A DNA stretch of 64,000 nucleotides from positions 1-64,000 of the forward strand of contig JACZKQ010000028.1 in assembly GCA_014859965.1 (NCBI GenBank), written 5' to 3'. How positions within the stretch are numbered: position 1 is the stretch's first letter; each line of letters begins with the position of its first letter. This DNA comes from Phycisphaerae bacterium. GTDB taxonomy: Bacteria > Planctomycetota > Phycisphaerae > Sedimentisphaerales > Anaerohalosphaeraceae. Under the pieces are notes generated by a model. It made no database searches. It was not told where the DNA came from and saw only the letters and a list, made by a program, of their open reading frames with translations. Of the stretch, positions 11,844-17,670 are shown one piece after another. The translations under genes and the position numbers were made by a program.

Positions 11844-11999
11844 CATGCTCCAGCGAACTCCTGCTGTCACTCTACTAATATCTGATGTGCAAGCCGTGTA
11901 GTCGCGGGGGGTGGTGAGTGATGCGGGGTATCGACGCAGTAACGGATTGCGGCAGCGCTGGATTTGTTGACAGAAGGAATTTCGGCAGGAGTTTGGTCC

Positions 12000-13190
12000 A
12001 TGGACGAACCGAGAGAGGTCCTTTCGGCTTGCGACGGGATTGCGTCCCGTGAGGCAGGAAGCCGGCCGGCCGATGATGCAGACTTGCTGGATTACCTGGC
12101 CATCGTCTGGCGTTACAGGTATATGATAACGGCGGGGAGCATTCTTCTGACACTGATAGTTGCAGCAGCAGTGCATTTCGGCAGTCAGCAATACTCTGTC
12201 ACCTACGTTTATCGCGACTGGGACTTCCTTGAGGAAGATTATGAGGTTTTTCTCAATCGTTTTTATTCATCCACAAATCTGGGGCGTATCGAAACGGCCA
12301 TTGCCAAAGGCGGCAGCAGCGGAAGCGGCCTGCTCAGCGGGTGGTCCACGCGGAAGGAATCGGCGGAGCGCATCGTGCGGTTTAGTGTCTGGCCGGAGTA
12401 TTCTGAGACCCGGACGACCAGCATGCAAGACGGCTCATCGCCTGCGGTAGGCGAACTGCTTCGCATGACCATTACGTGCGACAGTGAAGAAGATCTTCGT
12501 TTCGCCGGGGTTGTTCTGCGAGAAAACATCGAGAACCTGGTGCCGCTTTTGATTGTTGAAAAGCAGTTGGCCGGGTTGATTAAGAGCCACACAGCCAAAC
12601 GCGCCAGTATCGAGGCAAATCGATTTCCCCTTTCCGTGCTGCTTACACGGAACAAGGCGATTTTGGAACGGCTGAGGAGAATCGAGCCGGCGGGCGCGGC
12701 GGATTGGGACGACCGAATCAGCCTTCAGTTCAACATCGGCAGCAGGAGCGAGTATCTTCCATTGGCATACCATATCCGGGCGGTGGAGACACAGGTGCTG
12801 CAGGCTGAGGAGGAGATGCTCAGCGATGAGAAAACCTACCGCTACTACGGCGATTTGACAAATGTCAACGAACAGCTTTTCAATGCTTTGAAGAAGCCGG
12901 ACTCGGGCCTTACGATTGCCGGGTTTCTGTCTTACGTGGACGAGGCACGGCGGCGTTCGGACGAGCAGGAGATCAAGGATTTTTTATCCTCCTATCTTAA
13001 GACGTTAAGCAACAGCCTGTTGACTTGCGCGCCGGTTTCCGAACTGCCGGGGATCGAGTGTTCAGGCAGAGGATTGGTACGGAAAATGGCAGTTGCCTTT
13101 TTTATGGGTTTTGCCTTCACGACGGCGGCGGCATTTCTCGCAGAAGGTATTCGCCGGCGGAAGCACCAGATCCCGGCGGCGCAGCGTTGA
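12000..13190 (+). CDS. Wzz-like polysaccharide chain-length or co-polymerase protein
   Basis: A 396-residue inner-membrane protein with the chain-length-determinant architecture: a short cytoplasmic N-terminus, a first membrane helix at residues 42-60 (MITAGSILLTLIVAAAV), a long largely helical periplasmic region, and a second helix at 363-383 (MAVAFFMGFAFTTAAAFLA) before a basic tail. It would set polymer length together with the Wzy-like polymerase encoded 14 kb downstream. No tyrosine-kinase domain is attached. The frame extends to a TTG at 11964, but the ATG at 12000 has AGGAG eight bases upstream. It opens the locus. Assignment rests on topology more than on sequence motifs. Confidence 0.68.
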   Translation: MDEPREVLSACDGIASREAGSRPADDADLLDYLAIVWRYRYMITAGSILLTLIVAAAVHFGSQQYSVTYVYRDWDFLEEDYEVFLNRFYSSTNLGRIETAIAKGGSSGSGLLSGWSTRKESAERIVRFSVWPEYSETRTTSMQDGSSPAVGELLRMTITCDSEEDLRFAGVVLRENIENLVPLLIVEKQLAGLIKSHTAKRASIEANRFPLSVLLTRNKAILERLRRIEPAGAADWDDRISLQFNIGSRSEYLPLAYHIRAVETQVLQAEEEMLSDEKTYRYYGDLTNVNEQLFNALKKPDSGLTIAGFLSYVDEARRRSDEQEIKDFLSSYLKTLSNSLLTCAPVSELPGIECSGRGLVRKMAVAFFMGFAFTTAAAFLAEGIRRRKHQIPAAQR

Positions 13191-13370: not shown

Positions 13371-14675
13371 ATGAGTAATTGCAGAACGGTAATCATCGGC
13401 CTTGACGGCGTCCCTTTCGAGATGATCCGGCGCCTGTGCGGAGCGGGGGTGATGCCGCATACGCGCGTACTTCTGGAGGAAGGTATTTTTCGCCAAATGC
13501 GGTCGACGGTTCCAGAGATTTCGTCGGTGGCATGGTCCTCGATGATCACGGGAACCAATCCGGGTGTACACGGCATTTTCGGGTTCATGGACCTGTTTGA
13601 GGGCTCGTACCGGATGCGGTTCCCGAACTTCAGGGACCTGCGGGCGGAGCCGTTCTGGCGGGAGTGGCCGGGCGAGTCGGTGATTATAAATGTTCCGTCG
13701 ACCTATCCCGTAGAGCCGATGGAGGGCGTTCACATCTCGGGTTTCGTGTCGGTCGATATGGCGCGGAGCGTGCATCCGGCCGGCCTGCTGGACAAGCTGA
13801 CCGAGATGGACTATCGCCTCGACGTGGATTCGCAAAAGGCGCACAGCTCGATGGCGTTGTTCCTGTCGGACCTCAACAAGACTTTGGAAGCACGCATCCG
13901 GGCGAGCCGGTATTTGTGGGATCATGTGGACTGGCGGACGTTCATGCTTGTCTTCACGGGGACGGACCGGCTGATGCATTTCCTGTGGAATGCTTATGAA
14001 GATGAACGGCATGTCCATCACGATTTCTTTCTGGACCATTTCCGCCGGATCGACGAGGCCGTCGGCGAGTTTTGCGCCCGCATGAATGACACCGATCTGC
14101 TGGTGATGCATTCGGATCACGGTTTTGAGCGGCTCGACTGGGACATCCAGATCAATCACGTGCTCAAGGAGGCAGGATTTCTGGCGTTCGAAGCGGGGGA
14201 AGAAGAAGTGCTAAGGAACATTCATCCGACGAGTCGGGCGTTTGCGCTGGAACCGGGCCGGGTTTATGTGCATCGCCGCGGCAAGTACCCGCGCGGCTGC
14301 GTCGACGATGAGGCGGATACGATTATGGCGGATCTGGAGCAGGTCTTCAGCCGCCTCGAAGTCGAGGGACGCAAGGTCATACGGGACGTCTATCGCGCGG
14401 AGGATATCTATAGCGGCCCTCAGGTCGAGCACGGACCCGACCTGGTGCTGGTTGGCGCCGAAGGGTTCAATTTGCGCGCCACTATGAAGGCGCGGGTTTT
14501 GGCCGAACGGGGCATCTTCACGGGCAAGCATACGCAGGACAATGCGTTTCTCTTGGTGCGGCCTTGCGGCGGGGAGGCGGACCTTCCGGAGTGGCCGGAG
14601 ATTTCAGAGGTACGAACGATTATCGAAACGATGAACCCGGCTTTGGCAGGCGTTTGCGGCCGCCGGTATGCATAA
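13371..14675 (+). CDS. Alkaline-phosphatase-superfamily phosphodiesterase/pyrophosphatase
   Basis: A 434-residue member of the type I phosphodiesterase/nucleotide pyrophosphatase group. Metal-binding motifs are visible: Asp12 in IIGLDGVP, the nucleophile region SSVAWSSMITGTNPG (51-65), the Asp/His pair in TDRLMH (198-203) and HSDHG (247-251). These enzymes hydrolyse phosphate esters or transfer phospho-groups with two metal ions. Here the enzyme may process a nucleotide-sugar, a lipid-linked intermediate or a phospho-substituent of the polymer. No signal peptide is seen, so it is probably cytoplasmic. A 180-base spacer without features separates it from the Wzz-like gene, and no strong ribosome binding site precedes the ATG. 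Confidence 0.78.
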   Translation: MSNCRTVIIGLDGVPFEMIRRLCGAGVMPHTRVLLEEGIFRQMRSTVPEISSVAWSSMITGTNPGVHGIFGFMDLFEGSYRMRFPNFRDLRAEPFWREWPGESVIINVPSTYPVEPMEGVHISGFVSVDMARSVHPAGLLDKLTEMDYRLDVDSQKAHSSMALFLSDLNKTLEARIRASRYLWDHVDWRTFMLVFTGTDRLMHFLWNAYEDERHVHHDFFLDHFRRIDEAVGEFCARMNDTDLLVMHSDHGFERLDWDIQINHVLKEAGFLAFEAGEEEVLRNIHPTSRAFALEPGRVYVHRRGKYPRGCVDDEADTIMADLEQVFSRLEVEGRKVIRDVYRAEDIYSGPQVEHGPDLVLVGAEGFNLRATMKARVLAERGIFTGKHTQDNAFLLVRPCGGEADLPEWPEISEVRTIIETMNPALAGVCGRRYA

Positions 14676-14784
14676 CATGGTGTGTCGGATCGGTTGGGCG
14701 TTTTATGGCAGGCGCCTGCCATGCCGTTTGAACAAGGATGAGCGAGTGCGTTGCGGAACAACGCGCGACAAGTAAGGAGTGGAT

Positions 14785-16311
14785 ATGCACAATGCCAAAT
14801 GCACGTGCTGGAACTGCCCTGCGATCGACCTTGCAGGTAAGGTTGATTTTCGGGCCTGCGGGCAGTCGACCAAGCAATTCGTTAAAGCGGCGGACGACAC
14901 AGAAGAGACGCGGATAATGGGCGAATGCAAGCGGCGTCCTGAACTGGGTTTGTTCGATCCGATGGATATGACATTCGCCGAGTGCACCGAGTACGCGCCC
15001 GGTCCTTACGGTTACATGCTCAGGGACATGCGGGTCATGATTTTGGGCATTGACGGGTACCTGGGGTGGACGCTGGCGCTATGGCTTGGCAGTCTGGGCT
15101 GCAAAGTGAGCGGAGTGGACAACTACAATCGGCGCGAGTGGGTCAAAGAGCGCGGAGCTCAGACGATCGTGCCGATTTCGCGCATGAACGAACGCCTGCG
15201 GGCTGCGCGGGAGGTGCTGGGGCTCAACATTGATTTTCGCCAGATCGACATTTACTCGGAGCGCGACCGCTTCAAGGAGTTTGTCGACGAGGTGAAGCCC
15301 GAGTCGATCGTGCATTACGCGGAATGTCCGTCGGCGCCGTTCAGCATGATCGACGTGGAGCACGCCATCAAGGTCCAGGAGAACAATGTTCTTGGAACAT
15401 TGGCGACGCTGTTCACGATGCGGGACGTGGTTCCGGAAACGAGCATGGTGAAGCTGGGCACAATGGGCGAGTACGGGACGCCGCTGACGGGGCGGCCGAT
15501 TTTCGAAGGGCTGTTTCCCGCCGATGCGGTGCTGCAATGGGAGGGACGGGAATGGAGTCTCGGGGGGGAGATCGTTCCGCGTGATCCGGCCAGTTTCTAT
15601 CACGTCAGCAAAGTTCAGGATACGTTTAATTGCTATGAGGCGTGCAAATACTGGTGGCTTCGGTCGTACGATGTGATGCAGGGGGTGATTTTCGGGGTCG
15701 ACACGGATCAGGTGTCGGCGGATCCGCGGCTGCGTACGCGACTGGACATCGATGAATGGTTTGGTACGGTGATCAATCGTTTTGTGGCGCAGGCGGTTGC
15801 GGGCATTCCGTTGACGTTGTACGGCATGGGCCGGCAGATCCGCGGCTTCATCGCGCTGCGGGACGCCATGGAGTGCATGACGCGGCTGATCTGCAGCCCG
15901 CCCGAACCGGGCCAATACGCCGTTGTCAACCAGGTGTCGGGGATCTACAGCACGCGGGAACTGGCGTATATCGTCGCCAAGACAGGTCGGGAGCATTTCG
16001 GGCTCGACGTTCAGATTCAACGGGTCGAGAACCCGCGGGTCGAAGCGGACGAGCATCCGTTCGAGGCGATATATGAACGGCTGCCGAAGGAGTTCGGATT
16101 CGCACCGCAAGTGGCATTGGAAGACGAAGTCCGCAAGATGTTCGAGCTGTTTTTGACGGACGAGGTGCGAGCACGGATCGAAGAGCGGCGGCAAGTGATC
16201 ATGCCCAAGACATGGTGGTCGGGGGTCAAACGAGAAGTCGAACGTCTGGAACTTCTCGATCTTCAAGGAGAAATAGAAGAAGATGAGCGCATGTTTAAGA
16301 TTAACCGATGA
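14785..16311 (+). CDS. sqdB-like: UDP-sulfoquinovose-synthase family enzyme with Cys-rich N-terminal extension
   Basis: A 508-residue extended short-chain dehydrogenase closely following the SQD1/SqdB pattern. It has a Rossmann loop GIDGYLGW (88-95), KLGTMGEYGTP (catalytic Thr region, 225-233), YHVSK (272-276, Tyr and Lys of the active site), NPRVEADEH and a C-terminal VIMPKTWWSG. SqdB converts UDP-glucose and sulfite to UDP-sulfoquinovose. Plant SQD1 has EQRSAPYSMID where this protein has AECPSAPFSMID, so substrate use may differ. About 80 residues precede the fold and carry six cysteines (C6, C8, C11, C25, C48, C67), suggesting a metal- or redox-active module not found in SQD1. AGGAG lies five bases before the ATG at 14785. 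The gene overlaps a thioredoxin by 29 bases. Confidence 0.85.
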   Translation: MHNAKCTCWNCPAIDLAGKVDFRACGQSTKQFVKAADDTEETRIMGECKRRPELGLFDPMDMTFAECTEYAPGPYGYMLRDMRVMILGIDGYLGWTLALWLGSLGCKVSGVDNYNRREWVKERGAQTIVPISRMNERLRAAREVLGLNIDFRQIDIYSERDRFKEFVDEVKPESIVHYAECPSAPFSMIDVEHAIKVQENNVLGTLATLFTMRDVVPETSMVKLGTMGEYGTPLTGRPIFEGLFPADAVLQWEGREWSLGGEIVPRDPASFYHVSKVQDTFNCYEACKYWWLRSYDVMQGVIFGVDTDQVSADPRLRTRLDIDEWFGTVINRFVAQAVAGIPLTLYGMGRQIRGFIALRDAMECMTRLICSPPEPGQYAVVNQVSGIYSTRELAYIVAKTGREHFGLDVQIQRVENPRVEADEHPFEAIYERLPKEFGFAPQVALEDEVRKMFELFLTDEVRARIEERRQVIMPKTWWSGVKREVERLELLDLQGEIEEDERMFKINR

Positions 16312-16696
16312 CAATTTTTTGGAGGAGGTCCTCGACGCCGAGGTGCCGGTGTTGGTGGATTTCTGGGGTTCGTGGTGTCCCCCGTGCAAGATGATGGAGC
16401 CGGTGGTGGATGCCTTGGCGGAGACGTTTGCGGGTGTGCTGAAGGTCGGCAAATTGAACGTGGACCGGAACCCCGCGACTCGGTCGCAGTTCGAGGTTTC
16501 GGCGGCGCCAACGTTTATCCTGTTTCAGGACGGCGAGGTATCCATGCGGGCGATCGGTGCGCGTTCGCACAAGCAGCTTGTAGAACTGATCAACCGCGCG
16601 CTCGGCCGCCGCGAGGCGGCGCCTCAGCGCGTGGTGGCGGTGCACACTGCGTCGCAGGCGTCGGGGCGCACGCAACTCGAGGTTTCCACGATATGA
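16283..16696 (+). CDS. Thioredoxin with a WCPPC active site
   Basis: A 137-residue thioredoxin fold protein. The active site reads GSWCPPCKMMEP instead of the standard WCGPC; the cis-proline loop is AAPTFILF. A tail of about 30 residues beyond the usual 105 shows no motif. No signal peptide is present, so it is cytoplasmic. Its start lies 29 bases inside the end of the sulfoquinovose-synthase-like gene, and its stop overlaps the next epimerase gene as ATGA, so the three are translationally coupled. This placement suggests it reduces the neighbouring enzyme or supplies reductant for sulfite or sulfur handling. That role is inference. Confidence 0.88.
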   Translation: MSACLRLTDDNFLEEVLDAEVPVLVDFWGSWCPPCKMMEPVVDALAETFAGVLKVGKLNVDRNPATRSQFEVSAAPTFILFQDGEVSMRAIGARSHKQLVELINRALGRREAAPQRVVAVHTASQASGRTQLEVSTI

Positions 16697-17670
16697 CGCC
16701 GTCGGCAGGGTCAACACGGGTATTCATCACCGGCGGCGCCGGATTTATCGGCGCGAATCTCGTTGACTATATTCTGGAACGGCACGGATTCTGCCTGCGC
16801 ATTTACGATAATCTGTCCGCCTGTTCGCGTGCGAATCTGGACGCTGTGGTCCGCAGGCATGGGGCGGACGGCCGAGTCCAATGTGTCGAGGGCGATATTT
16901 GCGATTTTGAGAGGCTTTGTGATGCGATGACCGGCCATGAGGCCGTGGTTCATCTGGCGGCTCACACGCAGGTCCGGCAAAGCATAGTTGACCCCCGGCC
17001 CCATGTCGCAGTGAACGCAGAGGGAACTTTCAACGTGATCGAAGCGGCCCGCCGCACCGGCGCGCGGGTTTTTGTGTTCGCGTCATCAAACGCGGCGGTC
17101 GGCGCGCAGAAACCGCCGATCAATGAGACGATGGTTCCTCGCCCCATGTCGCCCTATGGGGCCGTCAAACTTTACGGGGAGGCACTGTGCTCCGCTTATT
17201 ATCATTCATACGGGCTCAATACTGTAGCGCTGCGATTCGCCAATGCGTACGGACCATTTTCGGGGCATAAGACGTCGGTGGTTGCAAAATTTCTGCGGAA
17301 ACGACGGTCGGGGGAAGCATTGGAGATTTACGGCGACGGCGGCCAGAGCAGGGATTTCGTTCATGCGGGTGACATCGCGCAGGCGATTTGCCGCGTCATT
17401 ACTTGCGGTCCGGAGGCGACGGGTTTGTGGGGCGAGATTTTTCAGATTGCTACGGGGCGAGAGACCCGTATCGTCGATCTGGCACGGGAGATCTGCCGGC
17501 TGACGGACGGCTCGGAAGAGGCGTTGACGTTCGGCGAGGCCATGCAGGGGGAGATATGCCAGAACTTTTCAGACATCGGCAAAGCCGGAGCCATTCTGGG
17601 TTTTGCGCCGGAGGTCGACCTCGGGGTCGGTCTTTCGACGATGTGGACAGAAGAGAGCACTCGGCCCTGA
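16693..17670 (+). CDS. NAD-dependent sugar epimerase/dehydratase
   Basis: A 325-residue extended SDR enzyme acting on a nucleotide sugar. The NAD-binding loop is TGGAGFIG (residues 14-21), an HLAAHTQV strand follows, the active site includes ASSNAAVG and YGAVK (Tyr-x-x-x-Lys), and RFANAYGP is typical of UDP-glucose/UDP-glucuronate 4-epimerases. Its ATG at 16693 overlaps the thioredoxin stop as ATGA. It would supply one monomer of the repeat unit; the exact sugar is not determined. Confidence 0.88.
   Translation: MTPSAGSTRVFITGGAGFIGANLVDYILERHGFCLRIYDNLSACSRANLDAVVRRHGADGRVQCVEGDICDFERLCDAMTGHEAVVHLAAHTQVRQSIVDPRPHVAVNAEGTFNVIEAARRTGARVFVFASSNAAVGAQKPPINETMVPRPMSPYGAVKLYGEALCSAYYHSYGLNTVALRFANAYGPFSGHKTSVVAKFLRKRRSGEALEIYGDGGQSRDFVHAGDIAQAICRVITCGPEATGLWGEIFQIATGRETRIVDLAREICRLTDGSEEALTFGEAMQGEICQNFSDIGKAGAILGFAPEVDLGVGLSTMWTEESTRP

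Follow-up and report, generated by a model that had tools for sequence, protein, structure and literature searches.

We report a three-gene cassette, conserved and apparently undescribed, in which the gene of an SqdB-like enzyme with an N-terminal cysteine module is accompanied by the genes of a phosphodiesterase (PDE) and a thioredoxin (Trx), and which is linked to sulfate activation. The window (the whole stretch of DNA that was analysed, 64,000 nucleotides from a Phycisphaerae bacterium) carries one copy of it. The earlier note on this DNA had singled out the SqdB-like gene but overlooked the two conserved partners; these, and the link to sulfate activation, are the main find beyond that note. 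A literature search found no paper on the SqdB-like/Trx/PDE gene triad. The cassette points to a possible route, not described before, by which sulfur is passed to a sugar. Which compound supplies UDP-sulfoquinovose synthases with sulfite in vivo, and by which route sulfite reaches the active sites of sulfonate-sugar synthases in cells, is an open question (PMC4388408), and a module fused to the synthase, together with an adjoining Trx gene, makes the question of sulfite supply directly testable. The features of the window are as follows.

13371–14675, + strand: AlkP-superfamily phosphodiesterase (PDE), PF01663, 112.2 bits
14785–15027, + strand: N-terminal cysteine module, residues 1–81, from the alignment of 42 homologues
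15028–16308, + strand: SqdB-like extended SDR core, from the NF041015 and SQD1 matches and structure comparison
16283–16696, + strand: thioredoxin (Trx) with a WCPPC active site, TIGR01068, 99.2 bits (cut-off 96.8)
16696–17670, + strand: GalE/dehydratase-like SDR, start approximate
17765–38337, + strand: O-antigen/EPS cluster, from domain matches

The SqdB-like gene is the open reading frame at 14785–16311 (+), which encodes 508 amino acids. Its start is the ATG at 14785, which lies 5 nt after AAGGAG; the mechanical reading frame opens earlier, at a GTG at 14779. The SQD1/SqdB hallmark motifs that had been claimed for this frame are all found in it, namely KLGTMGEYGTP (residues 223–233), YHVSK (272–276), NPRVEADEH (416–424) and VIMPKTWW (471–478). 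Residues 82–478 match the UDP-sulfoquinovose synthase model NF041015 with 401.9 bits (E=2.7e-120; 402.7 bits in the genome search), and the protein matches the sequence of SQD1 (1i24) at E=3.3e-81; both matches are far above chance. For the AlphaFold model of the protein (pLDDT 82.8), the closest solved structure is SQD1 (1qrr), with a VIA Z of 50.9 over 376 residues at 37% identity, and the next is GalE, with a Z of 32. The core has the nucleotide-binding motif GxDGYLGW and conserves the catalytic T226, Y272 and K276. The assignment of the core to the SqdB superfamily stands. The domain search matched only Epimerase and GDP_Man_Dehyd, and the PAPS_reduct domain (PF01507) is absent from the protein.

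Strict SqdB membership is a different matter. The family to which the window protein belongs shares with SQD1, SqdB and Agl3 the SDR fold, YxxxK, the TMGEYG loop, NPRVEA(D/E)EH and the C-terminal IMP..W. However, the NF041015 score of the window protein, about 402 bits, does not reach the equivalog cut-off of 575 bits. In a quick, midpoint-rooted tree of 102 sequences, the EQR(A/S)AP sequences, among them SQD1 and a homologue from Sinorhizobium meliloti, group in one clade (99*), and the Cys-module family forms a separate clade (100*) on a stem branch of 0.79, with several E-x-P-S (P-type) lineages between the two. In this tree the family is thus not part of the clade that holds the proven UDP-sulfoquinovose synthases, an outcome that the earlier note had named as refuting its assignment. 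Furthermore, the position of SQD1 Arg101 is occupied by Pro in the window protein (ECPSAP where SQD1 has EQRSAP) and in nearly all of the Cys-module family, and the window protein should therefore not be called an SqdB of the proven type. In total, three of the four features tested speak against strict membership, and the fourth, the fold with the catalytic Thr/Tyr/Lys, agrees with it. The replacement of QR by CP, to which attention had been drawn, is half characteristic: the Pro is common to the family, whereas the Cys is one of several residues (I, C, N, V, Y) seen before it. The Ala mutant of the Arg101 equivalent is inactive in Agl3 (PMC4388408, Table 1). Nevertheless, we do not take the change to Pro as proof of a changed function, and it does not disprove sulfite chemistry, because Pro is also usual at this position in many SqdB-like proteins that lack the module, and the genes of two such proteins adjoin PAPS/APS reductase genes.

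Beyond the known enzymes, the window family has a core segment of its own, GLFPADAVLxWxxREWSLGGE, near-constant Trx and PDE neighbours, and the N-terminal cysteine module. The cysteine-rich extension described in the earlier note was confirmed: it comprises 81 residues with six cysteines (6, 8, 11, 25, 48 and 67), of which all except the variable C6 are invariant in the 42 aligned homologues, as are N3, T7, W9, F22, G26, Q27, R50, G55 and P59. The pattern with its five conserved cysteines can be written TCWxCP-x5-GxVDFRACGQ ... ECxRRPELGxF(D/E)P...ITFEECPEW, and at least five cysteines occur in the module of 64/64 family members with an N-terminus. Among the homologues and genomes searched, the module was found fused to the SqdB-like core only and not on other proteins. 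A Pfam scan of the 42 module members gave chance-level matches only (best E 0.037), a PDB profile search with the module gave no sequence match at E<=10, and Foldseek with a stand-alone model of the module (pLDDT 72.5, with residues 20–40 below 50) gave only matches with E>8. The search for the module as a separate family therefore returned a unit that is conserved across homologues and lacks sequence relatives in Pfam and the PDB; judged by sequence, it appears to be new and undescribed, but the empty fold search does not show that its fold is new. Its identification with a known domain was accordingly dropped, and a resemblance to a HiPIP-like Fe-S subunit was backed by no search. In the AlphaFold model of the full protein, loop 23–44 of the module is poorly predicted, which would be expected if the module needs a metal or a partner.

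The cassette was counted by profile searches of the flanks of module-bearing loci with enough sequence. The PDE is present in 63/64 of these loci (it is missing in L019), and in 57 it lies directly upstream on the same strand. Trx is present in 59/59, with a median gap between matches of 66 bp and a maximum of 370 bp; the SqdB-like and Trx reading frames overlap in some loci, including the window, where the first 29 bp of the Trx gene lie within the SqdB-like gene. In contrast, neither PDE nor Trx occurs near any of 92 module-less homologues searched likewise, the R-type included. The association of module and partners has a Fisher p of 2e-43, a value that is overstated because shared descent and transfer connect the loci. 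Nevertheless, the cassette is spread over two domains and numerous phyla, and most archaeal cassettes consist of the three genes alone; a GalE/dehydratase-like SDR follows within 2.5 kb downstream in 35 loci. Both partners have the residues of active enzymes: most cassette thioredoxins have the active site WCPPC, and the metal and nucleophile positions of the PDE (D12, S51, D199, H203, D249, H250 and H387) show a conservation of 95% or more across the cassette family. The cassette PDE thus keeps the nucleophile and metal ligands of the AlkP-superfamily type I phosphodiesterases/nucleotide pyrophosphatases (PF01663) but differs from other members in forming its own subfamily, which is tied to the cassette and to CysD-CysN. 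One cassette, in Methanophagales (L055 878–4338), may be decaying or may reflect an assembly error: the SqdB-like and PDE genes each lie in two frames, and its thioredoxin reads WCTAS, with the second Cys lost.

Sulfate-activation genes (CysD, CysN, CysC and an associated DUF2061 gene) flank the cassette in 10 loci of bacteria and archaea. CysD and CysN, which form ATP sulfurylase, lie beside it in six of them, some with DUF2061 (L003, L010, L011, L017, L060 and L063), and CysC or DUF2061 in the other four (L004, L016, L026 and L028). The genome of the window itself (G000) has on another contig (C125; L197 9899–13265) a CysD-CysN-PDE set without SqdB-like or Trx genes, whose PDE is 57% identical to that of the window; this set ties the PDE to sulfate activation. 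Moreover, Sulfotransfer_3 accompanies the cassette in 23 loci. In Planctomycetaceae this domain is fused to Trx or follows it, in a spirochaete (L038) it adjoins Trx, and in a Thermoplasmata archaeon (L042) it lies just upstream of PDE; the sulfotransferase is absent from most non-planctomycete cassettes, the window included. Among 32 cassette genomes, CysH exceeds the cut-off in only 8, and AprA occurs in 1; the genome of the window has an assimilatory CysH. Three chromosome-level cassette genomes have no CysH above the cut-off: that of L003 gave CysD only, and those of L019 and L056 gave no match. APS kinase is present in 24/32 cassette genomes against a background of 115/300 (38%) in one archaeal phylum, so the association is weak and APS kinase was rejected as a specific marker of the cassette.

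The APS/PAPS reductases form sulfite from an enzyme-S-sulfonate, from which it is freed by thioredoxin. Plant SQD1 co-purified with ferredoxin-dependent glutamate synthase. We tentatively propose, with a confidence somewhat short of even, that the window protein sulfonates a UDP-hexose at C6 with sulfur that comes from activated sulfate via the Cys module and thioredoxin. This proposal is built on the core homology, the fold, the catalytic Tyr, Lys and Thr, the module, the triad, the intact PDE and Trx sites, and the sulfate-activation and sulfotransferase neighbours. From these we infer the C6 sulfonation, the sulfur source, a Cys-bound intermediate and the role of the phosphodiesterase, in the following form. 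The NAD-dependent SqdB-like enzyme would oxidise a UDP-hexose, probably UDP-glucose, at C4 and eliminate the 6-hydroxyl to give a 4-keto-5,6-ene; sulfite would then be added at C6 and C4 re-reduced, yielding a UDP-6-sulfo-6-deoxyhexose for a surface polysaccharide. The enzyme would not rely on free sulfite, and the five-Cys module and co-encoded Trx would act as a dedicated sulfur-delivery device. APS or PAPS from CysD/CysN and/or CysC may be the source of the sulfur, which would stay bound as a sulfonate to a cysteine (S-sulfocysteine) of the module or of a partner until thioredoxin releases sulfite beside the active site. The PDE probably acts on a nucleotide of the pathway, either the by-product AMP/PAP or the nucleotide sugar. 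The downstream GalE-like SDR could change the glucose to another configuration; the sulfosugars known from nature include 6-deoxy-6-sulfo-D-galactose, or sulfofucose (PMC12421959). The likeness to CysH and plant APR, in which thioredoxin would free sulfite from a Cys-bound sulfonate downstream of ATP sulfurylase, is by analogy only, and unlike CysH the window protein has no PAPS_reduct domain and has another Cys pattern. In plant APR, a Trx-like domain is part of the same protein (PMC6827007).

This sulfonation and delivery scheme is favored by SQD1 being by far the closest structure, with YxxxK/T/H retained, by the co-occurrence of module, Trx and PDE, by the sulfate-activation genes at and away from the cassette, by Sulfotransfer_3, by the missing CysH in L003, L019 and L056 and the rarity of AprA, and by the parallel with Trx-dependent APS/PAPS reduction at a point where the donor of known synthases is open. 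However, the Arg101 that is essential in Agl3 is Pro, sulfate activation is co-localised in only 10 loci with a weak APS-kinase link, most archaeal cassettes have no further genes, the sulfotransferase could merely make sulfate esters, and the counts are non-independent among loci kin by descent and transfer. The CysH of the window genome also means that free sulfite could be at hand. This last point leads to a rather unlikely alternative, a UDP-sulfoquinovose-type synthase working on ordinary free sulfite, in which the module would be a structural zinc site or redox switch kept reduced by Trx, and the neighbouring sulfate-activation genes would serve general needs or sulfate-ester formation. 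The core fold and catalytic residues are consistent with such an enzyme, and Agl3 takes free sulfite in vitro (PMC4388408), but the near-constant Trx and PDE at module-bearing loci, against 0/92 at module-less ones, would be left unexplained, and CysH is missing in several chromosome-level genomes.

The loss of Arg101 could instead have changed the chemistry: with a sulfide or persulfide as the nucleophile the product would be a 6-thio sugar, and with no nucleophile it would be a 5,6-ene or 4-keto sugar, and Trx and the Cys module would carry reduced sulfur. Agl3 forms the 5,6-ene without sulfite (PMC4388408) and is inactivated by R101A, and the long stem branch, the Pro of nearly all family members and the family-specific core segment all fit; we nevertheless consider this unlikely, as the Pro is usual in other SqdB-like proteins, including the two beside reductase genes, and the linkage to sulfate activation and sulfotransferases points to oxidised sulfur. 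Those same neighbours, CysC, CysD, CysN and the sulfotransferase, would suit a cassette for O-sulfation, with the SqdB-like enzyme as the source of an unusual acceptor sugar; this is very unlikely, because the constant genes are PDE and Trx, and the sulfotransferase is missing from most cassettes outside the planctomycetes and from the window. Returning to C6 sulfonation with sulfur delivery, we regard as doubtful its extension to a self-contained sulfate-to-sulfonate route, in which the Cys module and Trx (with the sulfotransferase in some lineages) take the place of a classical APS/PAPS reductase: (P)APS would pass its sulfuryl group to a module Cys, and this group would be reduced off by Trx and added directly to C6 of the UDP-hexose. 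If true, this route would be a new sulfite-channelling mechanism common to bacteria and archaea, and C6 sulfonation itself, if true, would mean that C-sulfonated surface sugars also occur in many uncultured planctomycetes, Omnitrophota and archaea.

A scan of genome contigs gave 71 loci, all but five of which form one family, most at 57–81% identity, and every member with its N-terminus present bears the module. According to the MAG labels, its hosts are Planctomycetota, Phycisphaerae, Omnitrophota, Auribacterota, Aminicenantes, Chloroflexi (Thermoflexia, Dehalococcoidia), Poribacteria and Spirochaetes among the bacteria, and Bathyarchaeota, Thermoplasmata, Theionarchaea, Asgard-type archaea (Helarchaeota, Borrarchaeum), Diapherotrites, Altiarchaeales and Geothermarchaeum among the archaea. 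Fuerstiella MAGs are among the carriers of the cassette, and the archaeal relatives include thermophiles such as Geothermarchaeum (L028). The full module occurs in only 2/392 genomes of the phylum of the window, its own and G307, a genome outside the first set with the same cassette gene order (G068 and G112 have short, weak matches), and in 2/300 genomes of one archaeal phylum. This patchy distribution, with high identity across domains, suggests that the family spread by horizontal transfer.

The capsule-type setting claimed for the gene is present, with Wzx (17765), Wzy (25985), glycosyltransferases (27411, 28637 and 35690) and an initiating sugar transferase (36940) around it. The cluster also holds a carbamoyltransferase (29830), an MBOAT protein (32824), methyltransferases and a FemAB/deacetylase fusion. 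Thus, in the proposal of an SqdB-family enzyme that makes a sulfonated EPS sugar, the function remains plausible and strict family membership does not hold. Upstream of the cassette, a 408-aa reading frame at 11964–13190 of the window has no Pfam or NCBIfam match.

The module-less P-type SqdB-like proteins, from IMG/VR contigs, a Bathyarchaeota locus (L068) and Bacillota (L070–L073), have the same core with E-x-P-S for EQR but differ in having no Cys module and no PDE or Trx nearby; two adjoin CysH. At L109 and L167 (IMG/VR) and L192 (a Pelagovum plasmid), module-less SqdB-like genes adjoin a PAPS/APS reductase gene, which suggests that viral contigs and a plasmid encode a local supply of sulfite for sulfosugars. 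Of 88 genes sampled next to the SqdB-like genes of viral contigs (L104–L183), 14 are cytidine/dCMP deaminase-like. Finally, in a Poribacteria MAG (L062 2859–5411) and an Omnitrophota MAG (L063 8312–10863), the SqdB-like gene is interrupted by what appears to be an intein, about 340 aa long, with LAGLIDADG_3 and weak Hint matches, which splits KLG from TMGEYG in the active-site loop.
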